A DNA stretch of 64,000 nt from Aspidapion aeneum (lineage: Eukaryota > Arthropoda > Insecta > Coleoptera > Brentidae). The first letter of the stretch is position 1. Every line of letters begins with the position of its first letter. The stretch is taken from positions 50,909,847-50,973,846 of the forward strand of contig OY755044.1 of NCBI GenBank assembly GCA_963576565.1, read 5' to 3'. The notes below the pieces were generated by a model. That model had not been told where the DNA came from and made no database searches. It saw only the letters and a program-made list of their open reading frames with translations. Shown in pieces: positions 8,139 through 51,422 of this stretch. The position numbers and the translations under genes were made by a program.

Positions 8139-8212
8139 ATGTAACGCCCGGTTCCCACCTACGACTTTCTCGTGGGTGCCCGCTCACGCGTCACATGATC
8201 TTAATATGAAAT

Positions 8213-8236
8213 TGTGGGAAATAATGTTATAACGCC
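8213..8236 (+). repeat. first 24 bases of the Gypsy-B 5' LTR
   Basis: TGTGGGAAATAATGTTATAA and the following CGCC are identical to the start of the 3' LTR at 49632. The rest of this LTR resumes at 40304 after the Polinton, starting with the duplicated AACGCC. Confidence 0.9.
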
Positions 8237-8413
8237 AGTAGGGTATAAATAGGGAAGATCGCTTATCTATCCCATGTATTTCTTATGGCACTTCCGGTCG
8301 TTAGTTTCGGGTGCTGCCTCCGATGATTTGAACCAATGAGAAGGTTTGTATGAAAGTAGGTGGAGCTTAGATGATGGTGTGAGAGAGAGAGTGAGAAAGA
8401 GAGAGAGTGAGAA

Positions 8414-8447
<34 letters not shown>

Positions 8448-8620
8448 CGCGAGCGAGAAAACGGGAGAGAGAGAGAAAGAGACAAGTTGGGCTGTAAGAC
8501 TGTTCCCAAACTAGCGTGTGGTGTAAAATTGTGACCCCAGCAGACTCGACGCCCCGGCTACCAGATGGCGGGTGCGGGCGTCCAGCACGCTGGTGGGGGA
8601 TCCTGGATGTAGGAGCCTGC
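8237..8620 (+). repeat. Polinton left terminal inverted repeat
   Basis: It matches 39933-40303 in inverse orientation over nearly its full length, with indels in the (GA)n tract (about 8383-8480) and near 8262-8285. It carries TATAAATAG close to the tip, pointing inward, and a GC-rich block (GACGCCCCGGCTACCAGATG) near the inner end. Confidence 0.9.
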
Positions 8621-9044
8621 GCCTGTTAGTGGGATGTAATTCTTGCTCAATTAACCAATTGAGTGTTCTAGGCTCCTATCAAATTGTCAAAAATTAATTG
8701 CAACATTTAGGAAACTGATTTTTAATTCAATGAGTTTTTTTGTTTTTTTTAATTTATTTAAAATAGTAAACAAAATAGGGTAGAAGTAAAATACAGGATA
8801 TGGTATTCTATATTTTAGGAATCTATATTTATTTCAAGACATTTATGACTAATAGGTTTTCTTAAATGATAAATAGTTACAAAATAAAATACTGTTGAAA
8901 ATACTACATAAATTAATTCGAGTATAAAAGTGGGATTGTTGTAGTAGGATTGCGAACATGCGTCTTCATAGGAAGACTTTTCAAGTATAGGCTTCTTTTC
9001 TTGAGAAAAAAAAAGTCATATTGAGGCTGCTGCTGTTACTGCTG
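8621..9044. other. Polinton left subterminal region, no gene seen
   Basis: AT-rich sequence between the inverted repeat and the first minus-strand gene. A (CTG/CTGCTA)-like run lies near 9028-9050. No coding region is supported. Confidence 0.4.
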
Positions 9045-9049
9045 CTATT

Positions 9050-9612: not shown

Positions 9613-10068
9613 TTATTGTGGTAAGCTATTAAAAATATATTTATATAAAATTTTAACATAGGTTTGACTACATGCACATTCCCCAAGAATATGAACACCA
9701 CAGTGTTCATTACTTTTTTTTAGTACTGGTACTGTGGACTCGAAAACATTCTCTAAATTTATAATAGTAGGAACATTGAGTTGCATGGATTTAAAAATCT
9801 TAACTATAAAGTCCTTTTTAACTTCACCTTTAACATAAATAAAGTCAACATTTATTAAATTTTCACAAAAAATCTGATTTAAATTTGTATATTCCGTATT
9901 TCCTTGATCATATGGAAGTCCATGATGCTTGTTCAATAAGTAGTTGACACTCCGTCTCTCTGCGTTGTTTAAAGATGTATAAGGGATCTTGGGGTTAAAG
10001 ACATAATTTTTTAGGACTTTTCCATCATAGATCGCCAGTTCCTTTACGTCAATTATTTTTATTTTCAT
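9613..10068 (-). CDS. conserved Polinton-associated protein, function unknown
   Basis: An intact frame of 151 codons starts with ATG at 10068. Motifs include NNAERRSVNYLLNKHHGLPY, FIYVKG, INLENV and a C-terminal HCGVHILGECACSQTYVK with paired His/Cys. From memory, proteins with the same HHG, YVKG, (D/N)LE and C..H...CA order occur as multi-copy uncharacterised genes in insects and some other animals. The arrangement could suit a nuclease-like fold, but this is not established here. It lies just downstream of the capsid gene on the same strand, and it is one of the few intact frames of the element. Confidence 0.55.
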   Translation of the reverse strand: MKIKIIDVKELAIYDGKVLKNYVFNPKIPYTSLNNAERRSVNYLLNKHHGLPYDQGNTEYTNLNQIFCENLINVDFIYVKGEVKKDFIVKIFKSMQLNVPTIINLENVFESTVPVLKKSNEHCGVHILGECACSQTYVKILYKYIFNSLPQ

Positions 10069-10089
10069 CTTAACTGCAAATACAACTGA

Positions 10090-11299
10090 TTAAAGCAGAC
10101 TTCTTACAATACCTGATAAAGGCAAATATTCAAAAACAAAGTCGTGTATAATAATGCAATAAGCTACAACTTTTTCGTTAAAGTTTTCTTGACTTTGAAA
10201 TTCCAGTTTAACGTCAACGGTGCTGCTTTTCAGCGAGTCTGTCTGTTTACTAAAGTCAATTACAAAAACAGGATAAGACAGAAATGTTGAAATGAAAATA
10301 ATTTTGATAATCCATTAGAAGTTCCACAAAACGTTTTCCATGGTAGGATCTTTGAAAGTCCAAATACATTCTATTCACATCGCTTATTGACTCATGAGGA
10401 TATGATTCTGAATTCAGATATAATCTTATGTCGGTTATTTTTATGTTATCAAACTGACTACAATCTGCTGTGGGGTTATTAATACGGTCTTTTTGAAAGC
10501 CCACAAGGATATATCTAGGTCGCTCTAAATTACTGGCTGTCTTCACCATCCATATATCTTTTTTTGAATTTTTCAGTGCAGGCAAATCAAAATATTCCCA
10601 TTTTCTAAAGGGAATAAGAACAGGTGTATCCTTTTCAACTCTTTCTAAGATAGCCATTTTCAAAGAATCATTTGGAAATATGTGTTTAACTTGAGTTCAA
10701 CAATAGACAGTGTCACTACAGCGGTTTTGGTTCCACTGCTTTTGTAGCAATTATTATGTTCTAGGTCTAACCAAACGAATCCTATGTCTTCCTGCAATTA
10801 CATGTTTATAATCATTAAGTATCCCAAAAAGAAAACTAAGTGGAATACGTAAGCTAAACTGACGACTTACTGCTCCAATGGGTTTTAAAATTCCGTCAGG
10901 CCAATTCCATCCTGCAGGTACTAATGCTTTGCTTTCTTGTTCGGAAAGACTGAGAAGTGCCCGAAACGTACTTAGCAGACCTGGTTCACGAATTCGTTCT
11001 ATTTCTTTACCATTCAATTCGTAAGACATGGATTCAAAAAGGAATGCGCCAAAGTTATTTGTCGTGGTAATGCTTCCTGTCAAAGCAGCATCCGTGGATT
11101 CTTCAAGTTTACCCTCAAGAATTAACTCGGCTTCACTAATATCCATCCATTGATCAAGTTGGTTTAAAACAATTTCTATCTCGTCGCTATTTTTGAATGA
11201 TTTTGTATAGGGGTGATATGTGTGCCACTCTTCACGAGCAATGCTCTCGTCAGATCTTACAGGATTAAAAATTTGCAGTTTTTCGAAGCCGGAAGCCAT
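10090..11299 (-). pseudogene. Polinton major capsid-like protein, frameshifted
   Basis: The N-terminal half starts at ATG 11299 and runs to 10754 (MASGFEKLQIFNPVRSDESI; EWHTYHPYTKSF; AFLFESMSYELNG). The sequence between 10753 and 10664 continues the same protein in a shifted frame. The next part is 10663-10256 (LIPFRKWEYFDLPAL; LERPRYILVGFQ; YLNSESYPHE). The C-terminus continues in another frame to the stop at 10090-10092 (SSTVDVKLEF; CIIIHDFVFEYLPLSGIV). The total is about 400 codons with two frame breaks. It corresponds to the putative capsid protein found in many insect Polinton-like elements; a jelly-roll fold is inferred, not seen. Its start overlaps the end of the penton gene by about 35 bases, as in a compact virus-like operon. 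Confidence 0.72.
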
Positions 11300-12135
11300 A
11301 TTTTTTTGCTAACTGTAGTAATAAAATATTTCGAAAAGTGAGCTGGTTCTTTTTTGACGGTCGCCGATCAAATAAAACTTGAGCAAAATAATTGTCTGTT
11401 CTATATGGTAAGTTATTACGACATTTACTATTGAATGTTAAGCCCATTTCTAATCTAATCAAAATTTTCTCACCTCGGAAATTAACAGGATTTGAATCTT
11501 GATCGATAAGATCCAAACTAATCGTGTCAATGATCTTTTTTGTGACAGGTAGAAAAATAGGATTGTTAGGTTCAATATCTATGCTATAGCCGGGATCAAC
11601 CGAGGGGCTAAATGCAAAAAGTGTGTGTGCTTGCTCGTTTCCGTTGTACGATGCTGATATAATGTTGCACTCTATTCGAATAGAAAGCACTGGAACAATT
11701 CTAACGGGTAAATCTGATTCGTGCAGGATATCGGGTTTATATTTTTTTGATGAAAATCCTAGAAGCTGGCCAATGCTATCTGGGGGTTCAAAGTCCACTT
11801 CGTATATGCTTTTTAACTCAACTTTTAGGGTACTAAGATTCGGTTTCAACAAAAATGGAGTACACTGACTGATATCAACTCTATCCTGACATAAGGCTTG
11901 CTGAATATATGATTCAATCCCATCAATTTCGTAGCTACCTGTAGGTATTTCTAAACTTAGGTGTTCTCCCTCACTATTATAGTAAAATTCCTGGCTCTAT
12001 GTTGGGAATGGAATTCCAGGTATTAAGAGAAATCAGTGCAAGCGAATATTCGAATCGAGGATCTAGTTGAATGGGAGGAAGAAAAGTTGCTGAAAGGCAG
12101 CTTGTACGACCCTTTAATGTGAACGTATTTGACAT
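11265..12135 (-). pseudogene. Polinton penton/minor capsid-like protein, one frameshift
   Basis: ATG at 12135 begins MSNTFTLKGR. The N-terminal part has LDPRFEYSLALISLNTWNSI, followed by a frame break near 11998. The rest reads to the stop at 11265 with HLSLEIPTGSYEIDGIESYI, DFEPPDSIGQLLGFSS, NIISASYNGNEQAHTLFAFS, PGYSIDIEPNNPIFLPV and FRGEKILIRLEM. Total length is about 290 residues. The order and motifs match the putative single jelly-roll (penton) protein of insect Polinton-like elements. It lies between the protease and the major capsid gene, the usual morphogenesis cluster. Confidence 0.68.
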
Positions 12136-12161
12136 GACTGGTTAAGTAAACCTGAGGTTGC

Positions 12162-12560
12162 TTATTTAATATTTTTATTGCTTTGATTATACAAAAAGGA
12201 TAGACAAAGATGTCCACAATTAACAGTATTAAACTTTTGATATTGGTCGATATTATACATTATTTTACAGTTTTTATAATATCTTATTACTTCTAGTGGT
12301 GGGACTATAGCAAATCCATCAAAATATACAGCAGTATTGTTTTTTTGTTTCCAAACAGCTACCCAGTGACTTCCACTTTGATCTTTGGTGTTGAGATTAA
12401 TAATAAAAGCCTCATTAGACCAGGGACGCTTATTTTTTGAGAGAAGCTCGTCTCATAAAAACGCCTCTAAAGTGACGTATTTTAAGCTGCTTTGCGTATT
12501 TTTTGTTAGGTCAAAATCGGTTAAAGGTCGGCTGGGTAGTTTTATTGGAAGTTTTTTGGC
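12162..12560 (-). pseudogene. Polinton adenain-like cysteine protease, one in-frame stop
   Basis: Reading minus from about 12560: LPSRPLTDFDL, then an in-frame stop at 12452-12454, then DELLSKNKRPWSNEAFIINL, GSHWVAVWKQ, AVYFDGF, VPPLEVIRYYK and NTVNCGHLCLSFLY, with the stop at 12162-12164. The order His (SHW), acidic (YFD) and Cys (NCGHLC) matches the C5/adenain maturation protease of Polintons and adenoviruses, so the catalytic residues are present although a nonsense codon interrupts the frame. The frame is continuous upstream with the PLA2/core protein, so it may have been fused to it or begun near the LPSRPLT motif. It probably cleaved capsid precursors. Confidence 0.75.
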
Positions 12561-13488
12561 TTTTTTTTTTATATATAACCCGTATCCTGATTTGTATTTA
12601 TGTAGAAATAGACCGCTACCCCTTTTTCCTACTGCAATGGATTCCATCTGTTTATTATGTCTTTCATCCTCCTGGAGTTTTTGCCTTGCATTTTTGGCGT
12701 CTATAATAGTCTTCGCAATGGCCTCCAGAAAGAGCTCCTAATGCAGAAAGGGCACTGTCGAAACAAAAATATAAAATCAAAAAAAAATCATTTAGGTTAG
12801 GTTAGGAATATTTTATAATATTAGAATAGTATTTACCTGAAAAGTGGGATCAGGGGAAGAAATCCACCTGTCTTAGGTACGGGAAGAACTCTTGGTAGTT
12901 TAATCTTCTTTTTGCCTCCTGCTTGTTTAACTGTCATTCGTGCAATGCAAGAGCAGCATTAATTTGTTTGCGGTCCGACAGACCTCGACCCTTGTAAACT
13001 TTCATTTTCCTTTTCAGAGGTGCTAAAATTTTGGAAGAAAAAGACTTCTTTTTCTCTTTTCGCACTCCCATGCCCAATTTTTGTTTTAGTTACATTGCTG
13101 ATGCAACAACAAAGGATGAGGCCTTTTCCCCAAAGCTAGCGTCTCCGGATTTAAAACGTTGCCACGCTTTCTCCGCGAGGATTTTATCTGCTTTGTGTCG
13201 GTCTTTTATATCTTTACTTTTAGAATAGGCAATATCGTGATCTTTACAAAAATTATCTAATGGATGAATTCCCACGTCACCTCTAGCCAACCGCTCTTTT
13301 AGACGAGTTCCTGGGCCACAGAACTTTAAAAAATAAAATAATCATATTTTTAAAAAAGAGGTAACTATAATTAAATAGACTAAAATAAATGTAATTATTA
13401 ATATCTACCTGTGAGATGGAAGATGTAACTCAAACGGGAGTTTATTGATTGCAGTATTTAATAGACCTTCACCCTTCGAAGGTGTCAT
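12540..13488 (-). pseudogene. Polinton phospholipase A2-domain/core protein with two introns
   Basis: Exon 1 (13488-13409) begins MTPSKGEGLLNTAINKLPFE. A probable intron (13324-13408) follows, and exon 2 opens with FCGPGTRLKERLARGD and has NFCKDHDIAYS, the HD dyad and Ca-loop pattern of the parvovirus-like PLA2 family (Phospholip_A2_4). An in-frame stop follows VVASAM, then a basic stretch (RKEKKKSFSSKILAPLKRKM), then after a frame change IKLPRVLPVPKTGGFLPL. A clean 82-bp intron (12755-12836) joins FS across AG|T to ALSALGALSGG. The tail has GSGLFLHKYKSGYGLYI. The Pro/Gly/Ala hydrophobic middle resembles adenoviral pVI/core-type proteins by composition only. The role is probably membrane breach plus capsid interior. 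Confidence 0.7.
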
Positions 13489-13529
13489 TACGATTGATCG
13501 TTTACTTGTGTGACTACCGTTTTTTACAA

Positions 13530-14217
13530 AGCTTGTTATAAGTCAAATTCAAGCTGAGAAGCAAGTGAACGGGGGTATTGAAATAATCAACCTGGATGAA
13601 TTTCAAGATCATAATAAAGATAAGTTTCAAAAACATGGGGCTCTGTTACCAAGCACGGTTCGGGGTCTGGTTGTTGAAACCTCGGGGAGCGGGAAATCAA
13701 ATGATGCCATTAGCTTGCTTCTAGATCCCAATGGACTACGGTTTAAAAATGTATTTGTGTATTCAAAAACACTGTACCAGGAAAAGTACCAGCTGTTAGA
13801 AAAAAGTCTATTCCGGAAGTTCAGTATGTACCGTATAGTGAAAATGAGGGAATCCCTGATCCTTCAAACGCTCCATCATATTCCATATTCATATTTGACG
13901 ACATTTAATCGCAAAAGCAAGACATTATTCGAGATTATTTTAGCAGGGGTAGACATTCCAATATAGACTCAATTTTTATTGCACATACTTACACTACCAT
14001 TGAAAAGAGAAATATAAGGGATAATGCAAATATGCTTATCTTATTCAAAATGGATGAACATAACCTTAAAATGGTTTTTAACGAACACGTCTCTCCCGAT
14101 ATGTCATTTATTCTATTTAAAGAATTATGTAAAAAGTGTTGGAAGAACCCTTTTGATTTTAAAGTAATAATAAAAGATTGCGATGTATCTAACCGAAGGT
14201 ATAGGTTATACTGTTAA
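13530..14217 (+). pseudogene. Polinton FtsK/HerA-type packaging ATPase, frameshifted
   Basis: The first frame (about 13530-13840) has EIINLDEFQ and a Walker A-like VVETSGSGKSN, where the usual leading Gly is Glu. The Walker B equivalent SIFIFDDI sits in a shifted frame around 13890, followed by QDIIRDYFSRGRHSNID, and after another shift IAHTYTTIEKRNIRDNANM. The C-terminal frame (14032-14217) has MLILFKMDEHNLKMVFNEHV and ends at 14217. The start codon could not be fixed; no good ATG was found near the beginning. It is transcribed away from the minus-strand capsid cluster, leaving a short divergent intergenic region near 13489-13530. It packages DNA into capsids in related elements. Confidence 0.72.
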
Positions 14218-14449: not shown

Positions 14450-14699
14450 TTATTTTAGAATTTATGTAGTTTTATTATTTCGAATACTATATTTAATTAG
14501 GCTGAATCACCCTATATATTAGCGCAAATTTTTGCACTCCTTCCACACAAGAGTGTTTTTTGTTGATAAAAATATTGATGATACAATTGCAGTGTGTAGG
14601 TGTCGAAACAAGATGCACCAAAACGCATTTTAAACCGAACCTCCATCATTTGAACATCAAAATATTATTAAAACCTTTTAAACTTTAAAAACTTAAGTT
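14450..14699. other. intergenic, no gene seen
   Basis: AT-rich leader between two plus-strand Polinton genes. TATATATTAG near 14512 could be promoter-like, but this is not supported further. Confidence 0.3.
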
Positions 14700-15272
14700 A
14701 TGTCTGAAAGACAAGAACCAAGCGGTAGTGCTACGCCCGAAAACAGTGCCAATTTACGTAGAATTCGGGAAATATTTTTGGGAGACGAGCCCTCCACTTC
14801 CAGTTCGGTTGTAGTAACTTCTTCGACAAAATGTATCGAATTTTTAAATTTGCCTTATTACAGAAGCTTAAGTAGAGAGTTTCAATCACTTGTGTCCCCC
14901 TTTAATATTCAATATAAAAGATATGGAACCCATTTTGATCCTCGGGGATTACCATGGGAAGAAAATTGTGACGCACTACAGAGGCATAAATGGGTACATA
15001 ATACAGGTACATCAAATTGTAATATTTATTATCACATTTTAAGCAAGGAGAACAAAGATTGGATATTATGTCCTAAATGCTATTGGGAATTGGTAGATTT
15101 GAAGGATATGGACACCTTAAAAATGAAATATAATTTCTTGTCGTGTAATAAGGTTCACTTGCATCGACCATTCCATTATCATTGCATCTACTGTTTGTTA
15201 GATACAAAATCTGATAATAGATGTGAATTTAAGTTCTCAAGTCTTCTATGTAATACAACCTTCACAAAATAA
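14700..15272 (+). CDS. Polinton Cys/His-rich protein, unknown
   Basis: An intact frame of 190 codons from ATG at 14700. The N-terminal 50 residues are Ser/Glu-rich and probably disordered (SERQEPSGSATPEN). The C-terminal half contains LCPKCYWEL, FLSCNKVHLHRPFHYHCIYC and CEFKFSSLLC, so several Cys/His pairs could bind zinc. I do not recognise the family. Its intact frame contrasts with the broken neighbours. It lies between the ATPase and the replication genes on the same strand. Confidence 0.6.
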   Translation: MSERQEPSGSATPENSANLRRIREIFLGDEPSTSSSVVVTSSTKCIEFLNLPYYRSLSREFQSLVSPFNIQYKRYGTHFDPRGLPWEENCDALQRHKWVHNTGTSNCNIYYHILSKENKDWILCPKCYWELVDLKDMDTLKMKYNFLSCNKVHLHRPFHYHCIYCLLDTKSDNRCEFKFSSLLCNTTFTK

Positions 15273-15438
15273 TTAACTTTTTTCTATTTCAAAAACTTTT
15301 TATTAAGCAGATACACCCTTATACCCAATAGAAAAATAAGTGGGAGGAAAAGAGATTTTTTTAATTTTTAATAAGACTATAAAGTAAAATTAGTTCAAGT
15401 TAAACCATTCAATAGATACAACCGAACAAGAAAAAAAA

Positions 15439-15747
15439 ATGGAAAAAGTTAATGAAGTGGCCTCATGTAGTTTTAAAGAAAAAATTGAGGTAGATGAGAT
15501 GGGAGTAGGGATCCCCTACAAAATTTGCGCTTTTAAAAAAATTAAAACACAGTTTGGCAAGAGCATCTTGTGTGAGCTGGAAGAGCGTACATTGTTTTTA
15601 CCAAAACGATTAAGTGCAGTGCTAACCGATTCTACTTGTGAAGAATTGTTATCAGGTAATGGATGCAGTGTTATTTTTAAAGGAAAAAAAGTAGTACCAG
15701 GACGGACACATCAACCAGCAAACACTTTTGAGTTTATTAAAAATTAA
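15439..15747 (+). CDS. small Polinton protein, possibly OB-fold-like DNA binding
   Basis: An intact frame of 102 codons from ATG at 15439, preceded by an A-rich leader. Motifs include GVGIPYKICAFKKIKTQFGK, ILCELEERTLFLPKRLS and CSVIFKGKKV. From memory, the pattern (start of strand, TKFG, VELE, FLPKR, FKG) recurs in small proteins next to Polinton polymerases in insects. An OB-fold single-strand-binding role is only inferred. It ends 10 bases before the ATG of the polymerase gene, suggesting coordinated expression. Confidence 0.55.
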   Translation: MEKVNEVASCSFKEKIEVDEMGVGIPYKICAFKKIKTQFGKSILCELEERTLFLPKRLSAVLTDSTCEELLSGNGCSVIFKGKKVVPGRTHQPANTFEFIKN

Positions 15748-15757
15748 AAAAATAAAA

Positions 15758-18700
15758 ATGGAAGATATTATCATTAAAACTATTCAAACTTATAATTCTA
15801 TACATACTCCAGAAGAATATTTACAATTTTTAATATCTCTTGAGGAGCATATAAATATTTATGTCCAAAAGCTTAAAGCATCAAATATTTCAGTTGGAAA
15901 AAGACTGCAGTTTGAACACATTATTTCGGTGTTAGAGACTTACAAATTTAGAACTTTTAATAATTTAACTCAATTTAATTTACCAATTGTTGATGGAGAG
16001 CTACCATCAACCAGCACGAGTCACCAGCGTATGGTTCAATGGAAAATTATATCTTCAGTATTCGATTGTCGCATATTGACTGCTCTTATAACCAATCATG
16101 GACATTTGGACCCAAAAAATTTTTTGGAAGATTGTAAGACAGTTTTAATTCAAAAGCTGTACGACTTTCCGAAGAAGAAAAAGCAATGTATAAAAGTCAA
16201 TTTTCGTTTAAATTGCCTTTTTGAATTACCAAGTTCACAGGAGCAAGATTATAAAAGCTTTGGAACATCGAATTATGAAATACTTTTGACTACTGATATA
16301 AACTCCATTCTAGACGATATGCAGGAAATTCTCATAAAAAAGGTATGTTATTTTTACTATATTTTATTAGAAAACAAAAACAAACAATTATAGGTATTTT
16401 TTGTCTCCTTTTTCGATGAATAAGGATTAAAATAAATTTTAGTCCCAGACCCTTTTTTGAGACACAAAAATACCACCTTTAGTCCTTTATATATTTAAAG
16501 TAAGCCAGTTTCAATTTAAGATTAAATTTAGAAATTTTTGAAAATTATTTTTGAAATAAAACCAATTTTAATTTTAATATGATTTTTAACTCTATTTTTT
16601 CAAAATTTTTCAACTAAGGTTTTTAAAAAACTAAAGGGAATAAAATAGTATATATCCCAAGGGTCTAAAGTGTTTTTTAATCCCAGGTAAATTATAATCT
16701 TTTGATTTAGGATTAAAAGTACTTTGAGACCTAAAGTTCATAATACACTATAATATCTAGTAAACTAAATTTATTTTTTGTTGTTGTTGTAGATGGAGGA
16801 GTTTTCACACAAAGGATCTGGATGGAGATATTTATCAGTATCACATTTGATAGTTTCAATCAATAAATTTCATCCATTGACTGCTGGCTTTGGAACTTAC
16901 ACCCCGCTTCCTTTATGGTTATTGCGCAAAGGTATAATTAATATAATTAATAATGATAGAAAATGTTTTTTATACTGCTTACTTGCGTTTTTTTATCCTG
17001 TTTCAAAAAATAAAGTTAAACCGGAGTTATATCCTCAAGATCCTTATCAAATATTTAACTTAAAAGGTATTGAAATGCCAATAAAACTTTCAAATATTTC
17101 TAAATTTGAACAACTAAACAATACTATTTCAATTAATGTCTTTGGTATAGACACAAAAAATAAAATTCTTAAAATTATCACACTAAATCTAAAAAAAAGC
17201 ATCATATAAATTAGTTGTACCTAAATAAGAATCGAACTTGTGGTCATTACTGCTTAATTACTGATTTGGCCAAAATTGTTGTTACACAAGTGACTAAAAG
17301 CAAAAACAAAATACATGTATGTGATTCTAATCACTTTTCTTCGGAGGAAAAATTTAAGAGACATATTGAAAATTGTTCTCTTTTTTCCCCACAAAAAATA
17401 ATTGTACCTGAAATTACCAACGCTGTTCTTAAATTTAATTCGTTTAAGGCTCTTATTATGAAGCCATTTGTCATCTATTGCGACTTCGAATGCTTCACTA
17501 AGAAAATAAGTACGTGTATACCTGATCCCACAAATTCTTTTCAAAATATTAACGAAAAACATGAGGCATACAGTGTGGCATATAAAATAGTGTGTTCTTT
17601 TGACGAAAAATTAAATAAATTTAACTTGTATAGAGGAGAAAAACCTGCAAAGTGGTTTATAGAACAACTAAAAAAGGAAAGCGCTCAGATTTCAATTATA
17701 TTAAAACAAAAATTATTGGATAACAAAATATGTGAAAATTCTGCCTTTAACTTTTCTGAAATTACATTATGTCCGATTTGTAATGAATGTTTCTCTGAAA
17801 AAATCCAAAAGTTTTACATCATGACCACTATACAGGTAAATTTATAAATTTTTTGTGTAAAGAGGAGGAATAACACAATCATGCACCCGATATAGCAAAT
17901 GTAACAACCGTTTTTTTCCGTGTACCTATGATAATTCTAAGCCTGAGGTGTATTTAGCCTATTGGGATCTTAATAATCTTTATGGATTTTGTCAAGCAAA
18001 GGCTCTACCCTATAAAGATTTTGTTTGGGTAAATCAACAGAAAATTGATAATATTTTTTATTTATTTCAGAAAAAACCCCTGTCTAATAAGCTCTTGACT
18101 CTCTACGGTGAAGACAGTAACACGGGGATAATTTTAGAGGTTGATTTAAAATATCCTGACTATCTCCATGATAAACATAAATTTTTACCATTCTGTCCTT
18201 TAAAAGGGACACCACCGTCGCGGGTAAATATCCAAAACTGCTTTGCACTTTAAATAATAAAGTTAAATATGTGATTCATTTTAAAAATCTTTATCAATGT
18301 ATCAAAGAAGGATTGGTTCTTAAAAAAATTCACAGAATTTTACAGTTTAGTCAAAAAGCCTGGTTAAAATCCTTTATTGATTTCAACACTGATATGCGAA
18401 TGAAAGCAAAAAATGATTTTGAAAAAGATTTTTTTAAGATGATAATAAATGCAAATTTTGGGAAAACAATTGAACGTGATAGAAAAAAAGAAAAATTTTC
18501 TTGGCCAACTCTTGGAATTCTGCTCGTAAATTTATTTCAAGACCTGAATTTAAAAATCTCGTTTCTGTTGAATTACATAAAACTGAAATTATTTTTAATA
18601 AACCAATCTATGTAGGTTTTTCAATTTTAGATCTGAGTAAAACTGTTTTATATGATTTTTACGATGGGTATATTCAAAATAACATTACTCCTTATTTTGA

Positions 18701-19214
18701 TGTAAAAATAAATTACATGGACACTGATGCATATGTACTAGAATTTACATCAAAAAAGGATAATTCTCTTACAATTTATGATATAATTAAAAGAGATGCA
18801 AATAGTTACTTTGATACTAGTTACCCAATAAATAACAATTTTGGAATACATCATGTTAATAACAAAGTTCCAGGAAAAATGAAGGATGAACTGAAGGGAA
18901 AAATTTTAACAGAATTTATTTCCTTAAGAGCAAAAGTATATTCATACTTGGTGAATGGTAAAGAATTATTATCAAAAATTAAAGGGGTGGGAAAGTCTTC
19001 AACTCGAAATGTGACCTTTGACGATTTTTCTAAGTGTCTGTTTAAGAACAGAACCCAACATGTTAAATTTAATACCATCCAAAGCAAATCGTGTGTTAAT
19101 TATTCTTTATCAATTAACAAAATTGCTCTGAATTCTTCAGATGATAAACGTTTTATATTGCCAAATATGATTGATACGTGTCCTTGGGGACATTATTCAA
19201 TAATGGAAACTTAA
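15758..19214 (+). pseudogene. Polinton protein-primed DNA polymerase B, degenerate
   Basis: The start is set at ATG 15758 (MEDIIIKTIQTYNS); an upstream ATG would overlap the preceding gene. The N-terminal exon runs to 16342. A phase-0 intron (GTATGTTA... to TTGTTGTAG, 16343-16792) joins ILIKK to MEEFSHKGSGWRY. Polymerase features follow in order: zinc-like C/H segment, exonuclease motif FVIYCDFECF (about 17465), YWDLNNLYGFC (about 17955), KMIINANFGKTIE (about 18440) and the catalytic YMDTDAYVLEF (about 18715). Frame breaks lie near 17209, 17840-17945, 18250 and 18550, with an in-frame stop near 17210, so it cannot make a full enzyme. It replicates linear Polinton or virus DNA in related elements. 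Confidence 0.85.
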
Positions 19215-19423
19215 ATTTTTCCTAGTTTGCCTGCATTTGCTATTTTTTACGTATTTTATAAGTATGTAACTGTGTTCTTCCTGTTAAAGACATAATTTTA
19301 AGGGTTTAATAATATAAGTTTAAAAGGTTTTAATAATATTTTGATGTTCCTCAGGAGTTTTTTTATTTTGTTGTAAAAATATTTATATTTTTACTTGTTT
19401 TAAAATAATAAATAACCAACTTA
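19215..19423. other. Polinton sequence between polymerase and Gypsy-A
   Basis: AT-rich, no coding region. The last four bases, CTTA (19420-19423), are the left copy of the Gypsy-A target duplication. Confidence 0.7.
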
Positions 19424-22652: not shown

Positions 22653-22672
22653 AGACGATTAACCTAAAAAGA

Positions 22673-38769: not shown

Positions 38770-38773
38770 CTTA

Positions 38774-39476: not shown

Positions 39477-39833
39477 TTAAAAGATACTCCCACTCAATAA
39501 GCCATTCATCTGTTTGATTATTTCAAGCCATTCATGTTCTCGCACAAATTTTTCAGACATTTTCTGATAACGACATAAGAAAGGCCAATAGAGTTCACTT
39601 TTAAACATATGCATAAAAACTTCGGATAAGTTTTTCTGATATCTTGAGACATTAGGCCAGTGCATTCTATTGAGAAACGTTGCCATAAATATTTCTGATA
39701 ACCTATGTTTTCGACACACGATTTCCCAATTAATTTGTTCACAAAACCATCCTATAAATTGCTCGCTAATTACAGGTGATTCCGAAATTTCATCCCAAAT
39801 TTTCTTAACACAATCTTTGTTCTCGAGAATCAT
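39477..39833 (-). CDS. small protein of four ~23-residue LSE/W/YQK repeats
   Basis: An intact frame of 118 codons. It consists of imperfect repeats of the form (L/I/M)SE-x-F followed by an aromatic position and a Trp, then (R/K)YQK. Examples are ISEQFIGWFCEQINW, LSEIFMATFLNRMHW with VSRYQK, LSEVFMHMFKSELYW with LCRYQK, and MSEKFVREHEW. Similar repeats are known to me from large DNA viruses, phages and some mobile elements, without a firm function. It lies 100 bases inside the right inverted repeat, pointing inward, so it is probably a Polinton accessory gene. Confidence 0.55.
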   Translation of the reverse strand: MILENKDCVKKIWDEISESPVISEQFIGWFCEQINWEIVCRKHRLSEIFMATFLNRMHWPNVSRYQKNLSEVFMHMFKSELYWPFLCRYQKMSEKFVREHEWLEIIKQMNGLLSGSIF

Positions 39834-39932
39834 CTTACTTTCTTCTTATTGTTGATACTGCTCGCTTGAGTGCTCTATCTTAACTAATTTACCTAAAAAT
39901 TACAAATTTGATCTAGAAAATACATCCCTCAA

Positions 39933-40303
39933 GCAGGCTCCTACATTCAGGATCCCCCACCAGCGTGCTGGACGCCCGCACCCGCCATCTGGTAGCCGGG
40001 GCGTCGAGTCTGCTGGGGTCACAATTTTACACCACACGCTAGTTTGGGAACAGTCCCACGTTCCAACTTGTCTCTCTCTCTCTCCCGCTCTCTCGCTCGC
40101 GCGCTCTCTCTCTCTCTCTCTTTCTCACTCTCTCTTTCTCACTCTCTCTCTCTTTCTCACTCTCTCCCTATCTCTCTCTCTCTCTCACCATCATCTAAGC
40201 TCCACCTACTTTCATACAAACCTCATTGGTTCAAATCATCGGAGGCAGCACCCGAAACTAACGACCGGAAGTGCCATAAGATCTCCCCTATTTATACTCT
40301 ACT
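39933..40303 (-). repeat. Polinton right terminal inverted repeat
   Basis: The inverse of 8237-8620. It includes a (CT)n tract at about 40070-40190, GCACCCGAAACTAACGACCG and the tip CTATTTATACTCTACT. The Leu/Ser-rich open frame across the (CT)n tract is a by-product of the microsatellite. Confidence 0.9.
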
Positions 40304-40479
40304 AACGCCGCCACTGGCAGCGACACTCTCTAGATGAGTTTGGTGCCACGATGTGTTCACGTGATCTAGACGATGACGAAGCGTTTAAGCTCTCTACCGC
40401 CGCGCAGACCAGAATATACCCAACGTATCGAAGTGTGGCGCGAAGTGACTTTCAGTTTGCTCTTGGCTGCCATAAGCAT

Positions 40480-41808
40480 GCCTAGGAAACTCAATGCAAT
40501 TTGACAGGTCGTTAGGTTAAAGTTCTCACTAAGCTCAAAAGAGGCGCTGCGGTCGCGCGTTTGTTCCTTATTCTTTTTTTTTTGAGATTTATCTGTGGTT
40601 TGGATTTTCCGTCTCCCTTTTTTCAGGTAGAAAAACCTCTTCCACCGCATTTTATTTCGGGTTCATTTTAAATCTATCTTTTTGGCTTATGTAGGTAATC
40701 TTTGCTGCTGTGACGCATTAAAATTAAATTTTGTTAAATTTGTAACTTTTGCAATTTTTAAATATAAAAGAATAAGAATTTCTAGTTGCTTTTCTGGGTG
40801 AAGTGTCTAAAGTTCAGACGAGTATAAAATGCATAGTTATCCGAGAAATTTTAAGGTAAGTTTTCTTATTTTCTCATTTGAGGTTGATTGGCATTTGATA
40901 AAATTTGTATTGGTAGTGTCTTTTTAACTTCTTATCGCTTACTTTATGGAACTCTAAATACAGGTTTCCAATGCCTGGTAGGTGCCTTATTTGCCCATCA
41001 ATTAAGCACAAATTTAGTGTTAATTTTATGTCTATCCCTTTATTTTGATATTAAGTAAAAGGGAGACACATACAAAATTAACACTAAATTTGTGCTTAAT
41101 TGATGGGTAAACGAGGGATTACCCAGCAGCGTAATGTACTTTGAATAAATTTATTCCTTCATTTTAAATCTTCATCTTACCATAATCTAGTACGTATGAT
41201 TAATGTGGTTATAAGTTAATTTTTTTTTATTGTTTTCAGCTTGTGGATGATATGTGCGACCACTGATAAGCTATGTATATACTGCTTTGAAACATACCCT
41301 ACACAACTTACAACCAAGACGAGGAGGTACTTTTAAATCATGTCAGACGGTTCCGCATGTCAGATTTTCGTCAAGGTGTTAAAAAGTAGACATTTAAGAA
41401 TGATTCTCTTCACGAATAACTGTTTGATTATTTATTCACTCATAACTCACCAGAAATGTTAAAAGCTTGGTTTTTCATTATATTTTATTTTACGAATCAA
41501 TTAGACTATGTATTATTTCATCAATAGTTAGTCGTCAATTTGTAGCTTTTTTTATAATAATAAAAACTCATTTAAAAAATGTTTTATTTATTGCACTTTA
41601 TAAAATATTGACTGATTAAAAATTTCAAAAAAAAAACTTTAAGATTAAAGAAAATTTATTATAAAAGGAGATTCAAATTTCCCGCATCAACTTTTAGTTC
41701 GTCGCTAAGCTCAGTAGTGGGCACCACAGAGTTAACGATCTGTCAAACAGCCGGAGTTGCCTATCTAATAAAAGCTCACTGAACCGCAGCAAAAATCCTT
41801 TATCTGTG
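40480..41808. mobile_element. 1.3-kb insertion in the Gypsy-B 5' LTR
   Basis: The 3' LTR has no counterpart. CATAAGCAT flanks it on both sides (40471-40479 and 41809-41817), a 9-bp duplication, which would suit Mutator-like elements. No clear terminal inverted repeats and no transposase were seen. Inside, 40990-41110 forms a long hairpin: TTGCCCATCAATTAAGCACA and its inverse TGTGCTTAATTGATGGGTAA. Confidence 0.7.
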
Positions 41809-41828
41809 CATAAGCATAAGAAGGCTTA

Positions 41829-41986
41829 AGCCGATCACACACAAAAAAACATAACGCGTAAGAAGTTCAACCTTATGGACTTTTCTTACGTAAATCCAAT
41901 ATGGCCGCTGCTATTCGATCGCTGATTGGTTGAAAGCCCGCTATGCGCCATGCTACGGATTACGTAAATTGTGTGTGTGAAGGCCT
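41829..41986. mobile_element. 158-bp MITE with TTA duplication
   Basis: The ends are AGCCGATCACACAC and, inverted, AGGCCTTCACACACAC. TTA lies at 41826-41828 and 41987-41989. The uninterrupted version is seen in the 3' LTR (AAGAAGGCTTACCACGACG). It is probably PIF/Harbinger-like. Confidence 0.7.
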
Positions 41987-42191
41987 TTACCACGACGCGA
42001 GGCAAAAACGAGACGACGATTGATATTTGCCTACACGACGACTTACGACGTTTACTTAAGAGCCACGACGTTTTATTGTAAACCCCTAGTATTTTAAGTT
42101 GTTTTTAGTACTTTATGTTTGTTTGTTTCATTAATAAACAAGACTTATATCGCGTGCTACGAGTTATTCATCAAAAGAATCCCACAAAAAA

Positions 42192-43283: not shown

Positions 43284-44738
43284 GACTCAGAGGAATATTA
43301 TCAAAAAATTGACTTTATCGACACAAATTTTTCGGAAATTGAATTGGTATCGATTGCGAATATTTTATCGGTAAATTACGAAAATGCGGAAAAAGACACA
43401 TTGGTAAAAAGACTTTGTAGTGTTTTAATGGACATTGAATCTTTAAAAAACGCTATCGCGGAGGAAATGGTATTATCAGACGATACTGACGACGAGTATT
43501 TTGAATCCGCTGACAAAGACTCTAACCGTGCGAGTCCAAAAACTAAAAAATCGCTCGAAAAAGCTGTGCATCATGAAAAATCAAAAAATATTGACAATTC
43601 GCTTAATTAAATCAAATCAAGTTTTTTCTAATTCTCAATGCGTAACTACGAGTATTCCGAATACATTTCCCAATACGTGTCATTATACGAGTCCTGTTAC
43701 GTTGCAAAATACAAATACGTTGCAAAATACAAATATGTTGCCAAATACACATATGTTGCCAAATACGAATATGTTGCCAAACACGAGTGTTTATCCGAAT
43801 ATTAGTGTTTTTCCTAACACAAATGTTTCGTCATTAAATTATGCTATTCAGCAACCAACCCCAACATTATTTTCGAGTATGACTGTACCTATTACTGCGC
43901 CTACCCACTCATATAACTTAAATAGTCCGACTGTACAACCGATGATGTTTAGAGCAATGCCACCAGAAATAACACATAATGTTGCTACTACTGCTGCTGC
44001 AATGAGTAATAATACGTATTCACCTAACATGTCATCTGCTGCGTATCAACCCAATTTGTTTGCAGACAATACTCCGTTTAATACACCTACACCGACGTTT
44101 GCAATTAGTTTTAAAGATGTAGAAGGATCCATACGACCTTATGATGGCTCAAAAAAGTACCCAGTAGAAAAGTAGATCAGAGATTTTGAAAATTTGATGA
44201 ATTTACTAGGATGGAATGAATTACAAACTTACCTCTTTGCTAAAAAGTCACTGACTGGACTAGCGAAAACTTTTGTAGAAGATGAAAGTAGTATTAACTC
44301 TTGGTAAACACTACGTCAAGCGCTATTATCTGAATTTTCATCTAAAGTAAACAGTGCTGATTTGCATAAGCAACTAGTAACTAGAAAAATGCATAACAGC
44401 GAAAATATTCAAGAATATTTTATTAAAATGAAAGAAATAATAGCTAGCAGAGGTGAGATAGAAATTGAAGCTTTGTGATAGATGGAATTCCTGACGATGA
44501 AGCAGCAAATAATGCAGTGCTGTATGGAGCAAAAAATGTACAAGATTTCAAACAAAAATTAAAAATTTACGAAGAAATAAGATCAAAGTCAAGATCTTCA
44601 GAAAAAATAAACACGTTTAATACTAGAGCCGAAGAATCACAGAAGAACAGAAATTATAATTTAGGATCCACAGAAAGACAAGAACGAAATCAGAAGACAT
44701 ATGTGCAAAATACCCAAGTAACATTTCTTAATTTATAG
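43284..44738 (+). pseudogene. Gypsy-B gag, broken
   Basis: It continues after the MITE with an acidic stretch (43344-43610), then a frame change into an Asn/Pro/Thr-rich region (43501-44175) with repeated LPNTNMLPNT-type units. Next comes the gag entry motif ISFKDVEGSIRPYDGSKKYP, an in-frame stop at 44173-44175 and another near 44305 (both TAG/TAA within DFENLMNLLGW...LLSEF), and a final frame 44475-44738 with IDGIPDDEAANNAVLYGA. The 1.9-kb element at 44711 then cuts it from the zinc knuckle. Confidence 0.72.
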
Positions 44739-46637
44739 CAGAAGCTAAAAGGTTGCCAGCGCCTTTCCTTAAAACCATTAGTTTCAATGTTTGGTCGCTA
44801 GCATGTTCCCATTACCCTTATATACCCCTTAGACCTCCTAAATGGGACTCCCCAATTGGTGATGGCAACCTATGTATTAAACTCACTATAAAACCATAAG
44901 AAATAAACTCCAGCTTCGCCCTCTAGCGGTTCCACCAGTATAGAACCTTTTAGAGCCTAAAGCTATTATGCCAGGTTCTAAAAGCAACTCAGAAACGTCC
45001 TCTATCCTATCCACAATGGCTATATAAAATAATTTAGTTCACAACATTGTCAAAAATGTGAGAGTCCCAAAATTATTTTATCACATAAAAATATACCGAG
45101 TTTGTCGTTTTGTTGATGATCAAATTGCCTGCCAGATTTATTTTTCTGATAAAATCGTATCTAAAAAGCTCTCAAAACAAGCGCGCCAGCTCAAGAATGC
45201 TTTTTAATAGTTTTTTGATAACAAAATAACAAATATTTAAAATTAAAAAATACAGTATTCACCATTAAAAAAGTCTGTTTGGTTTACATAAATCAAAATT
45301 AAAGTAAAATTATTGTTAAAAAACACTGCTAAAACGACTAGATAAATATTTTTTAAATAAATTTATATACGCCATTATGGTTTTATAGTGGTCACTTGGT
45401 TTTATTTGTTACTGTATCGCAACAAGGATTTTTGAGTGCCCTTATGAAACCAACAAAAAAGAACAATGTAAATTTAGTCAACATAACCTCACTTAAATTT
45501 TTTGTATTTGTTTTTAAAGTGTTTAAAAGCCTATAATTCAACACTTTTAAATGTTTTTTATCGTGCAATTTCGACACAATCGAGAGGGCCAGTGCAATGA
45601 TATTCGTTGTGCCTGCAGGTTGGTGGGCAACCTCTTATATTGGCCGTCTAAACAGGCCTTATCTAGGCCTGAGTGTCCTACCCAGGAGGACGGAAACTCA
45701 ACAATTATTCATTATTGGGCTTTAAATAATCAATCTTGCAATAGGTAGGTACAGTCGGGGACTTTTTAAATTGCCGGTGTATTTTTTTTCTGTCAAAATT
45801 AATCACTGAAAGAAATGAAAAAATATAAATTTTTAAATTTTTATGTATACATACAGAGGTAAAGTTCACAATTTTTTTATTTTGGTTTAAATTAATTTTC
45901 CGAATTTCAAATAAGAATATTTTTTATTTTCAAGGGCGGCCATTTAAAAAGTCCCCGACTGTACCAATCTGTACCTAGGTATATTTATTATTTTTACAAG
46001 AAATACCTAAAAAAATAAAACACGAAAGTATTTACTTACTTCTGTTAGAACCCTTAAGGAAACAAGGTTTTATATGGCCGCCTATTTAAATAATATGTAA
46101 TATACAGCTATGGGTAACTATAAATACAAAAGAATTAAGAGTACCTTTAAGCCTTCCTATAAAACCTTTTTAAAATGCCTAAAAGTAATGGCAAAAACCA
46201 AAAGTGTAAAGTTTATATTTACCACTCTTAAAAACCTTAAGGAAACAAGGTTCTATATGGCCGCCTATCTAAGCATATTTACTTTTAAACTACTGGTAAC
46301 TATAAAAACAAAAGGATATAAGATAACCTTTTAGCTCTATTATAAAACACTTTTGTGATGACCTAAAGTAATGAAAAAAACTAAATGACCAAAGTTTATA
46401 TTTATTTCTTTTTAAAAGCTTTATGTAAAATGGTTTTATAAGACCATCTTTATAAATCAGAAATCAATAAAACCAAAAATATTTAAAAGGAACAGAAGGA
46501 ATATCAGTTTTATTATACTCCCTTTATAAATCACTTTTTGGTTGTATAACACCCCTTTAGGTAATTGGCAATATAAATTACCTTTATGTAGCCAAATTGA
46601 GCCTAAAACCTTGAGTGGTAATAATGTTACTTGGGTA
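44711..46637. mobile_element. 1.9-kb TIR element inserted in Gypsy-B gag
   Basis: A perfect 15-base inverted pair: TACCCAAGTAACATT (44711-44725) and AATGTTACTTGGGTA (46623-46637). The gag frame stops at its left end and resumes with the zinc knuckle at its right end. AAA on both sides may be the target duplication but is not decisive. The interior is AT-rich and has related copies of a motif with GGTTTTATATGGCCGCCTAT (near 46064 and 46250). No transposase was recognised, so it is non-autonomous. Confidence 0.75.
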
Positions 46638-47801: not shown

Positions 47802-47809
47802 AATCGTTG

Positions 47810-48345
47810 AAACAAGTGTAAAGTTTTTTGGGATTAACCGGATATTTCAGAAAATTTATTAAAGATTACTCTTTAATAACAAAACCATTAAGTGATCAGC
47901 TTAAGAAAAACAACAAATTGCAGCAAAAAGCAGCTTTTAATCAACAAGAATAATGGCTGAAAAACCAGTTTTGACAATATTTAAACAAAGTGCTGAAATG
48001 GAATTGCATACTGACGCCTCAAAATATGGCTATGGTGCAATATTATTACAAAGATCAAACGAAGATATGCAATTACATCCAATTTATTACATGAGTAGAA
48101 AAACTAGTGACGCAGAACAAAAATACAGTAGCTTTGAATTAGAAGTTTTAGCGATAATAGAAGCATTAAAGAAATTAAGAGTGTACTTACTAGGATCAAA
48201 ATTAAAGCTTTTACGAAGACCATGGAAAAGAAAGATATATCGACAAAGATAGCTAGATGGGCATTAATGATTGAAGAGTTTGATTATGTAATTGAACATA
48301 GACCTGGAACACGAATGAGACACGTTGATGCATTATCAAGATACC
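47810..48345 (+). pseudogene. Gypsy-B RT tail and RNase H, frameshifted
   Basis: It contains FLGLTGYFRKFIKDYSLITK (about 47826-47890), then RNase H from 47953 with MELHTDASKYGYGAILLQRS, YYMSRKTSDAEQKYSSFELE and LAIIEALKKLRVYLLG. A deletion or shift near 48210 leads into KIARWALMIEEFDYVIEHRP and HVDALSRYP. The first RNase H Asp and the Glu are present. Confidence 0.78.
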
Positions 48346-49606
48346 CGATTATGACAATACAAGATGAAGAAAATATAGTGATAAAAATTAAACGAGCTCA
48401 AGAGACAGATGAAGACCTAAATACAATCAAAGAAATTTTGCGAGAAAAACTCTATAAAGATAACATATTAAGAAACAAAGTACTGTATAAGCTAATACAA
48501 GGAAATGAACTATTGGTCATACCAAGAACGATGCAAAATGAAATAATAAGAATGGTGCATGATGATGGCCATTTTGCGGTAAAGAAAACCGAAGAAGCAC
48601 TTAAACAACAGTATTTTATACCAAAAATGAAATCCAAGATAAAGAAAATAATATCTTGTTGAGTTCCATGTATTCTTGAAAACAAGAAAAAAGATTCTTG
48701 CATCCTTTGGAAAAAGATGACGTACCATTAAATACTTACCATATGGATCACCTTGGTCCGTTGGAATTAACTAACAAGAATTACAAGCATATCTTATGTG
48801 TTATAGACAGTTTTACAAAATTTGTTTGGTTATATCCAACAAGATCGACGACCTTAAGTGAAGTAATCAAGAAATTAGAGACGCAAAGTAATATTTTTGG
48901 AAATCCAAGTAACATCATAAGTGACAAAGGAACAGATTTACTTCACAAGAATTTAAAGATTACTGTGAATCAAATAAAATCAAACACCATGCAGTTACAA
49001 GTGGAAAACCTAACAGTAATGGCCAGATTGAGCGAGTGAACACAATAATCGCAAATGTGTTAACTAAGCTGTCCACAGATGATCCAACTAAATGGTATAA
49101 GCATGTAGAGTCAGTACAAAAAATGATAAACTCAAGTTATCAGAGAGCAATAAATATGACGCCATTTGAACTTATGTTTGGCGTAAAAATGAACAAACCA
49201 GAAGATTTAAGAATTAAAGAACTGATCGAAGAAGAAATGATAAAAACCTTTGAAGAATTAAGAGATGAACTGCGAAAGAAAGCAAAAGAACAAATAAAGA
49301 AAATCCAGGAAGAGAACAAAACTTACTATGACAAGAAGAGAAAAGAACCAAAAGACTATGAAATTGGAGACTTAGTAGCAATCAAAAGAACGCAGCTAGG
49401 TCCAGGACTAAAGCTAAAAATAAATTTTTTAGGTCCATATGAAATAACCAAAGTAAAAGACAACAACACGTATGATGTGATTAAATTTGGATGCCATGAA
49501 GGTCCAATGAAAACGTCAACATCAGAATATTTAAAGCCATGGATTGCTTACGACGATGATGAAGTAAATGATGAGCCAGACTCAGATGACGAAACCACAT
49601 CGGAGG
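48346..49606 (+). pseudogene. Gypsy-B integrase, frameshifted
   Basis: The N-terminal zinc domain has MVHDDGHFAVKKTEEALKQQ and CC residues around a stop at 48660. The core follows in the frame from 48698 with YHMDHLGPLEL (first Asp), VIDSFTKFVWLYPTRST and IISDKGT (second Asp). A frameshift near 48955 precedes NSNGQIERVN (the Glu). The last frame (49036-49606) ends with a GPY module, FLGPYEITKV, and an acidic tail. Frame breaks make it inactive. Confidence 0.8.
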
Positions 49607-49969
49607 CCGATGCAAACCAGGACGGCCGAGTTGTGGGAAATAATGTTATAACGCCGCCACTGGCAGCGACACAAGTCTCTCTAGATGAGTTTGGTGCCAC
49701 GATGTGTTCACATGATCTAGGCGATGACGAAGCCTTTAAGCTCTACCGCCGCGCGGACCAGAATACAACCAACGTATCGAGGTGTGGCGCGATGCGAAGT
49801 GACTTTCAGTTTGCTCTTGGCTGCCATAAGCATAAGAAGGCTTACCACGACGCGAGGCAAAAACTTACGACGAGACGACGATTGATATTTGCCTACACGA
49901 CGACTTACGACGTTTACTTAAGAGCCACGACGTTTTATTGTAAACCCCTAGTATTTTAAGTTGTTTTTA

Positions 49970-51270
49970 CAAGCTTTTATTTAGCTTCAGATGTTCTGTC
50001 TAACTATCTAACTATCTATCAAATCTTGTGAAGCGTTTTTGACACACTTCCCATTATCCGCTTTGGATGAAATTTGGTACACACATAGTGGTCCCATGAC
50101 AATACAACATTAAGAAAAAATATCCTCCCACCCCTACCCCCACCCCTTTTATAGAAAAATGTGTTTTTGACACACTTCCCATTATCCGATTTGGATGAAA
50201 TTTGGTATTCACATAGTGGTCCGATGACAATACAACATTTAAAAAAAATATCCTCACACCCCTACCCCCACCCCCTTCCATAGAAAATGCGTTTTTGACA
50301 CCCTTCCCATTATCCGATTTGGATTAAATTTTGGTATACATAATAAATTTATCCGTTGACAATAAAACTTTGAAAAAAAAATCCTACCATCTATAGAAAA
50401 ATGCGTTTTTTACACACTTCCCATTATCCGATTTGGATGAAATTTGGTATACATATAGTGGTCCGATGACAATACAACAATAACGAAAAAATGTCCTCCC
50501 ACCCTACTCCCCACCCCGTTCCATAAAAAATGAGTTTTTGACACGATTCACTTCAAATGACTTTTATAAAATTTGGTATATGCATAAAGGTCCGATGGCA
50601 ATACAGCCCAAACAAAAAATATATTTCTACCTCTACCCCCACCCTCTCCTTCCCCCAATAGAAAAATGAGTTTCCAAACAACTCACGATCAGCGATTTCA
50701 TTATATTCTAGAATAAACTCTTCTGTTGTGTTATTGAACAAATATTTTCATTTAATAGAGTGGATAGCTGAGACTAAAAAGTAAAAAATAAATTGGCAAA
50801 ATTTTTTTTTTAAGTCACAAGCTTTTATAAAATGCACTAAAAAATAAAAAGTAATTTTCTAACATTATAATATTATCATAATAAAAGCGGTGGCCGCAAA
50901 TCAAAGCATAAGTTAATCTAAATTTGTGATCTAAACATTTAAAGAATATTCAACATAGCAGGTCATCAAAGATATGTTTGATGTGCCGCAATGTTATGCC
51001 ATTGCCATACCTATGTCAGAGAAATGCTGGGGTATCTTGGGTCGGGTTGGGTGGGTTTGGTACCTATGCATTTTTCTGCTAGATTGATTCTTGCAAATAG
51101 TGATATTTAATTGATACGGATATCTTATCGTGCTAACATCGTCAAAATTTTCATCAGTCGGCCATCGCTTTTATTATTATGATAATATTAGAATGTTAGA
51201 AAATTATTTTTTAATTTTTAGTGCATTTTATAAAAGCTTGTGACTTAAAAATTTTTTTTTATCAATTTTA
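49970..51270. mobile_element. insertion with ~120-bp tandem repeats in the Gypsy-B 3' LTR
   Basis: Absent from the 5' LTR, where TTGTTTTTAGTACTTTATG is continuous. TTTTA flanks both ends. From about 50040 to 50700 there are five or six diverged tandem units of roughly 115-130 bp, each with CACTTCCCATTATCCGATTT and GGATGAAATTTGGTATACA followed by a CCTACCCCCACCCC tract. The right third is the foldback element listed next. Confidence 0.7.
50802..51262. mobile_element. foldback element with ~95-bp inverted arms
   Basis: The left arm contains AAGTCACAAGCTTTTATAAA and ATAATATTATCATAATAAAA. The right arm (51163-51262) is the near-perfect inverse, ending TTTATAAAAGCTTGTGACTT. The 270-bp middle has no coding region. 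A short piece, ACAAGCTTTTAT, also starts the larger insertion at 49969, so the two may be one compound element. Confidence 0.75.
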
Positions 51271-51422
51271 GTACTTTATGTTTGTTTGTTTCATTAATAA
51301 ACAAGACTTAAAAACCATATCGCGTGCTACGAGTTATTCATCAAATGAATCCCACAAAATGTTATGACAGTCATTTGACGCGTGCTTGGGCAAGCACGAG
51401 AAAGTCGTAGGTGGGAACCGGG

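Follow-up and report, generated by a model that had tools for sequence, protein, structure and literature searches.

In plants, long terminal repeat (LTR) retrotransposons are commonly nested within one another and the order of insertion can be read from such nests, and nested LTR elements were reported to be least frequent in LTRs and in the integrase domain (PMC6911290). Intact vertebrate Mavericks are 12,723-24,620 bp long, and their gene modules generally point inward, with the outward arrangement reported for Rhinella marina (PMC8097293). The locus described here lies in 64,000 nucleotides of the beetle Aspidapion aeneum (assembly GCA_963576565.1, contig OY755044.1, positions 50,909,847 to 50,973,846), referred to as the window. 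It very probably represents a real nest of a short element with terminal inverted repeats (TIRs), the Ty3/gypsy retrotransposon Gypsy-B, a Polinton and the Ty3/gypsy retrotransposon Gypsy-A, built by a chain of ordinary transpositions; joints, ends and repeats were read within the assembled 64-kb sequence. Nested elements are well known, and the locus adds one more clean example of an ordinary case. No description of this nest was found in the literature searched, which is not proof that none exists.

Exact target duplications stand at the exact element ends in three of the four layers. Gypsy-A (19424-38769, minus strand) is flanked by CTTA at 19420-19423 and 38770-38773, the Polinton (8237-40303, no strand assigned) by AACGCC at 8231-8236 and 40304-40309, and Gypsy-B (8213-51356, plus strand), whose ends read TGTGGGA..TCCCACA, by AAAT at 8209-8212 and 51357-51360. 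Among 400,000 random pairs of positions in the window, 4-mers matched at a rate of 0.0064 and 6-mers at a rate of 0.00064; three duplications at element-defined ends have a probability of ∼3e-8 by chance, assuming independence. The first-pass annotation had proposed a four-level nest in which each layer has its own duplication and can be peeled off by CTTA, AACGCC and AAAT. The peeling was exact at the ends of all three elements, and the duplications of Gypsy-A, the Polinton and Gypsy-B stood; for the short element, a miniature inverted-repeat transposable element (MITE), no duplication was seen.

The Polinton joint has its empty site within the nest. The first 24 bp of the Gypsy-B 5' LTR (8213-8236, plus strand) end in AACGCC (8231-8236), and the remainder of that LTR (40304-42186, plus strand, with two inserts) begins with the second AACGCC (40304-40309). 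The 3' LTR (49632-51356, plus strand, with one insert) begins TGTGGGAAATAATGTTATAACGCC and continues GCCACTGGCAGCGACA, and it holds the uninterrupted Polinton target, with AACGCC at 49650-49655, as had been noted on the first pass. The left flank of the Polinton (8213-8236) is identical to 49632-49655 at 24/24 positions, and its right flank consists of AACGCC plus the same continuation, 16 further bases being identical.

A neighbouring copy of the short TIR element, itself intact, provides the empty site of Gypsy-B. There are two copies, 124 and 127 bp long, with identical 22-bp ends: MITE 1 is intact (8015-8138, minus strand) and inverted relative to MITE 2, of which the left half (8147-8212, plus strand) ends in the AAAT duplication at 8209-8212 and the right half lies at 51361-51421 (plus strand). 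CCGGTTCCCACCTACGACTTTC is found exactly at all four MITE ends, compared to a mean of 0.00 in 100 shuffles. When the halves of MITE 2 are rejoined, they match MITE 1 in reverse orientation at 115/123 positions with four gap events and an unbroken joint, and MITE 1 turned around reads AATATGAAATGTTAT over the Gypsy-B insertion point; the match in the same orientation is weaker (103/122, with the joint one base short). The claim that the halves rejoin to match the copy at 8015-8138 was thus borne out, though the match is inverted, an orientation that had gone unstated. No shared flank that could be a target-site duplication was seen at either copy, and the label MITE is for that reason used loosely. 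A search of genome contigs with the MITE end sequence gave no match. AACGCC also occurs at 8142-8147, between the two MITE copies, which is taken as coincidence.

The order of insertion MITE, Gypsy-B, Polinton, Gypsy-A, as given in the first-pass annotation, is supported because the geometry, the three duplications and the two internal empty sites (that of the Polinton in the Gypsy-B 3' LTR and that of Gypsy-B in the intact neighbouring MITE) agree on it in the sequence. Gypsy-B would have entered the short TIR element, duplicating 4 bp. The Polinton would have integrated next, 24 bp inside the Gypsy-B 5' LTR, with a 6-bp duplication, and Gypsy-A, a long-LTR Ty3/gypsy element, would then have inserted into the Polinton between the family B DNA polymerase (PolB) and the right TIR, with a 4-bp duplication. 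Independently, four other elements would have entered Gypsy-B and one MITE would have entered one of those four. Each duplication would be the product of staggered-cut repair, and the decay of the Polinton genes would mostly have followed insertion. With empty sites for two joints in the same locus, the order of events can be fixed without other genomes, which makes the locus a clean worked example of a Polinton insertion bracketed by two LTR retrotransposons.

Several observations weigh against this account. No clear polypurine tract was read upstream of the Gypsy-B 3' LTR, and the differences between the two Gypsy-B LTRs are patchy (7/168 versus 1/229; P = 0.012). A search for a Polinton integrase in 47 of the 48 open reading frame (ORF) pieces of at least 60 amino acids, and in 4 shorter ones, gave none; the omitted 48th piece (19363-19617) lies mostly in a Gypsy-A LTR. 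Gypsy-A contains a tandem triplication, the parts of which are unevenly diverged.

Gypsy-B has a net length of 6,346 bp, by coordinate subtraction of its inserts. Reverse transcriptase (RT), RNase H and H2C2 domains scored above the cut-off and the rve core below it. Gypsy-B is assigned to Ty3/gypsy because it has LTRs, a 4-bp duplication and the RT-RNase H-integrase order on the expected strand, although no polypurine tract was seen. An ORF at 48925-49959 extends into the 3' LTR. Scanning of two upstream Gypsy-B pieces gave no match to Pfam gag domains.

The four-layer inventory of the first pass was incomplete: the layers exist, and Gypsy-B has four more direct inserts beside the Polinton (1,329, 158, 1,923 and 1,296 bp) plus one second-order insert, none of them assigned a strand. 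The 5' LTR holds the 1,329-bp insert (40480-41808), which has a 9-bp duplication, CATAAGCAT, and an empty site at 49825 in the 3' LTR, and the 158-bp element (41829-41986), which has TTA flanks, partly inverted ends and likewise an empty site in the 3' LTR. The 1,296-bp insert (49970-51265) lies in the 3' LTR with a TTTTA duplication and contains a 128-bp tandem array (50033-50673) and a TIR stretch; all three LTR inserts have empty sites in the opposite Gypsy-B LTR. A TIR stretch also lies in the 1,329-bp insert, and together with the one in the 1,296-bp insert it may represent a further layer. The 1,923-bp element (44713-46635) has the TIR CCCAAGTAACATT with TA on both sides, contains a 183-bp tandem array and harbors the second-order insert, a 210-bp mariner-like MITE (45752-45961) with ends CAGTCGGGGACTTTTTAAAT and TA flanks. 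It sits just before a stretch reading CFNCGVHGHRSDQC, which we take to be a zinc-knuckle pattern and which would belong to the Gypsy-B gag.

The LTRs account for 13% of the Gypsy-B net length and hold four of its five direct inserts, the Polinton included (P = 0.0013), in a post hoc test with n = 5 and with LTR inserts being easier to see. It is quite improbable that the Gypsy-B LTRs served as a landing trap and that the Polinton came from a family whose members transpose without encoding an integrase.

The identification of the element at 8237-40303 as a Polinton is supported in its sequence by long TIRs starting with AGT, the 6-bp duplication, and pieces of a double jelly-roll capsid protein, a penton-like protein, a phospholipase A2 (PLA2)-like domain and PolB. 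Its net length is 12,717 bp with Gypsy-A subtracted, to be set beside the range of intact vertebrate Mavericks given above. The TIRs (8237-8620, 384 bp, and 39933-40303, 371 bp) contain GA/TC runs and have the ends AGTAG../..CTACT, and in a self-comparison the TIR core (8281-8620 versus 39933-40281) was 89.9% identical. The capsid, penton, packaging ATPase and PolB genes are each broken into several frames. The minus strand carries the capsid-side genes and the plus strand PolB and the probable ATPase, so that the modules are directed apart.

The major capsid protein is present in three broken pieces (10090-11308, minus strand), which matched PF21738 above the cut-off at E values of 4e-16 (profile positions 3-101), 9.7e-26 (126-268) and 3.1e-13 (265-315) of 316 positions; positions 9613-10089, without a Pfam match, may encode the C-terminal part of the capsid. 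The penton-like (single jelly-roll minor capsid) protein (11265-12141, minus strand) lies in at least two frames, with an N-terminal piece at 12001-12141, and has 70 homologues, one of them from a weevil endosymbiont record. A full-length model of one homologue (P0010; mean pLDDT, 86.4) had the mavirus penton as its closest PDB match in Foldseek (E value, 4e-11, with TM scores of only 0.41/0.37), followed by adenovirus pentons, and its best match in a viral library was an uncharacterized protein of Tetraselmis viridis virus S1. A penton profile gave 38 pattern matches in viral contigs and 21 in genome contigs, with no relative in either, and a comparison of the penton piece with phages gave no match.

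A probable adenain-like protease piece lies at 12162-12452 (minus strand), with a PF00770 E value of 0.084, below the cut-off; its translation contains GSHWVAVW, YFDGF and NCGHLCLSFL, which we take to be the protease motif. The PLA2-like domain at 13090-13341 (minus strand) matched PF08398 above the curated cut-off (E value, 1.4e-7). A probable packaging ATPase is split into two pieces (13514-14217, plus strand), with AAA_29 (E value, 0.011) and Pox_A32 (0.0083) both below the cut-off and with GSGKS, presumably the ATPase motif, in the translation. The PolB region spans many frames (14697-19214, plus strand), and its portion at 14697-18180 was assigned by position only. DNA_pol_B_2 (PF03175) matched 18181-18615 below the cut-off (E value, 4.4e-4). 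The piece at 18483-19214 has 217 homologues; of the 120 listed, all lack a precomputed Pfam domain and 3 carry the name DNA-directed DNA polymerase. The relatives include ones from beetles (Aromia and Psylliodes) and also from a wasp, molluscs and a spider. Compared with solved structures, a PolB piece gave a single match, to an oxidoreductase (E value, 0.65). At the right end of the Polinton, an ORF with internal repeats (39477-39845, minus strand) had no Pfam match and matched phrog_3532, a phage family of unknown function (E value, 1e-19); this was the only one of five pieces with a match in PHROGs. A 34-bp exact inverted repeat (14652-14685 and 19316-19349) surrounds the PolB region, and an imperfect palindrome of ∼100 bp was seen by eye at 38815-38925, within the Polinton and immediately to the right of Gypsy-A.

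The lack of an integrase in the 47 of 48 pieces could also point to an integrated relative, an adintovirus or another polinto-like virus, whose entry relied on an integrase acting in trans, and Drosophila-associated adintovirus 2 appeared at rank 38 among the structural matches of the penton model. However, the 6-bp duplication, the AGT-starting TIRs, PolB, the double jelly-roll capsid and the penton fit Mavericks as described for vertebrates (PMC8097293), and this copy may merely have lost its integrase gene. It seems unlikely that the element is such a virus. We retain the name Polinton and, given how heavily broken the copy is, describe the element as a member of the Polinton family in which no integrase was detected rather than as a complete Polinton.

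Gypsy-A has TG..CA LTRs (3' in the element's sense, 19424-22632, 3,209 bp; 5', 35589-38769, 3,181 bp; both on the minus strand) and gag, zinc-knuckle, protease, RT and integrase domains on the minus strand. A sequence resembling a primer binding site (PBS), TGGCGCCCAACGTGGGGC, adjoins the LTR at 35589-38769, and a G run precedes the other LTR. These are features of Ty3/gypsy elements, with the gag-protease-RT-integrase order interrupted by the triplication. Between the PBS and gag lies a leader of ∼5.2 kb (30333-35588) that is A rich on the plus strand; the longest exact inverted repeat found in it is 16 bp.

The triplication comprises the nucleocapsid, protease and RT in tandem units of ∼1.76 kb (24365-28847, minus strand). 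The integrase-adjacent unit is without ∼790 bp (the protease and the start of RT), and RT is matched there from profile position 75 onward. The remaining two units each end short of the integrase, and their RT frames break off at positions 185 and 187 of the 205-position profile. Therefore, no unit has the protease, the whole RT and the integrase in one run. Both unit-to-unit junctions have the same sequence, with the microhomology CAG.

Long near-identical repeats are abundant in the window, a setting in which part of the nest, above all the triplication, could have been produced by the assembly. Yet units 2 and 3 differ at 18/1756 positions and by two gap events and are therefore not one stretch laid down twice, and the matching duplications at the nest joints are not expected from misjoins. 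An assembly artefact is accordingly highly improbable.

The triplication may have arisen near the time of integration, since units 2 and 3 differ about as much as the LTRs do (18/1756 versus 36/3166; P = 0.78), which suggests that their duplication is roughly as old as the integration. It could instead have arisen well afterwards, by unequal crossing-over, or well before, so that it was inherited with the copy, and this is a possibility to be taken seriously, although we consider it the less probable one. Unequal exchange typically yields tandem head-to-tail arrays, the unit-to-unit junctions are identical, and divergence is uneven: the parts labelled X1 and X2 differ at 13/570 positions (P = 0.042 versus the LTRs) and the Y parts at 1-2/400. 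On the other side stand the agreement of units 2 and 3 with the LTRs and that of X1 and X3 (7/569; P = 0.83). Whether formed near integration, as we favor, or at another time, the triplicated Gypsy-A copy offers a modest example in which template switching by LTR elements can be studied.

The first-pass annotation had also described the nest as a calibrated context for Polinton activity in this lineage, a claim that did not survive the divergence comparisons. The LTRs of Gypsy-B (8/397) and Gypsy-A (36/3166) do not differ significantly in divergence (P = 0.14), the Gypsy-B differences are patchy, as noted above, and five of the eight differences between the Polinton TIRs (8/254, GA/TC runs excluded) fall in one short cluster. 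Gypsy-A is the least diverged, as the nesting requires, and the Gypsy-B LTRs, though older, show nominally less divergence than the TIRs (P = 0.014 for TIRs versus Gypsy-A LTRs and P = 0.44 for TIRs versus Gypsy-B LTRs). Gap events relative to substitutions were 7:8 in the Gypsy-B LTRs and 6:36 in those of Gypsy-A (P = 0.027), with two of the seven resulting from cutting. The insertion order is carried by the geometry and not by the divergence numbers. Dating of the Polinton by TIR or LTR divergence was dropped; the rate considered, 2.9e-9 per site per generation, is a Heliconius value and not that of the host. Turning the nest into a dated bracket would take a mutation rate for the host and a larger number of sites than is available in the LTRs.

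Outside the nest, RT pieces lie on the minus strand at 60213-61267 and 4963-6097, and endonuclease-like pieces in these regions were below the cut-off. A scan for tRNA genes found none.

For Gypsy-A, the closest comparison is provided by its integrase ORF (P0077), which has 103 relatives at E values of ≤1e-60, most of them without names. The named ones are mostly from beetles (Gonioctena, Callosobruchus, Molorchus, Exocentrus, Henosepilachna, Popillia, Coccinella and Rhamnusium), together with the ant Lasius and the bug Nesidiocoris. Named protein relatives mostly indicate a beetle as the probable host, and an initial assignment to Lepidoptera was abandoned after this comparison. Ty3/gypsy proteins of the leaf and seed beetles Gonioctena and Callosobruchus are at most 57% identical over 98% of this ORF. 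The likeness of Gypsy-A to its beetle relatives rests on the integrase ORF; the copy itself has LTRs of ∼3.2 kb, a leader of ∼5 kb and a triplicated nucleocapsid-protease-RT region.

The Polinton resembles vertebrate Mavericks in its 6-bp duplication, in TIRs within the range of 46-1,447 bp, in ends starting with AGT, in having PolB plus probable ATPase and capsid modules on opposite strands, and in its decay, most copies there being degraded (PMC8097293). In contrast to them, the modules here point apart, no integrase was found, a PLA2-like domain is present, and the ends read AGTAGG/AGTAGA rather than (AGT)2 (PMC8097293). A parallel in the host group may be a fragment from the beetle Tribolium castaneum that is compared with Polintons in a figure, the legend of which includes a parvovirus-type PLA2 domain in its key (PMC3671162, Figure 1); the likeness consists of a beetle fragment and the PLA2 entry in that key, and which element carries the domain is not established by the legend. 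The nest as a whole resembles the plant nests in having elements within elements, from which a relative order follows (PMC6911290). However, one layer here is a Polinton, and four of the five direct Gypsy-B inserts, which are of other kinds, lie in LTRs (PMC6911290).

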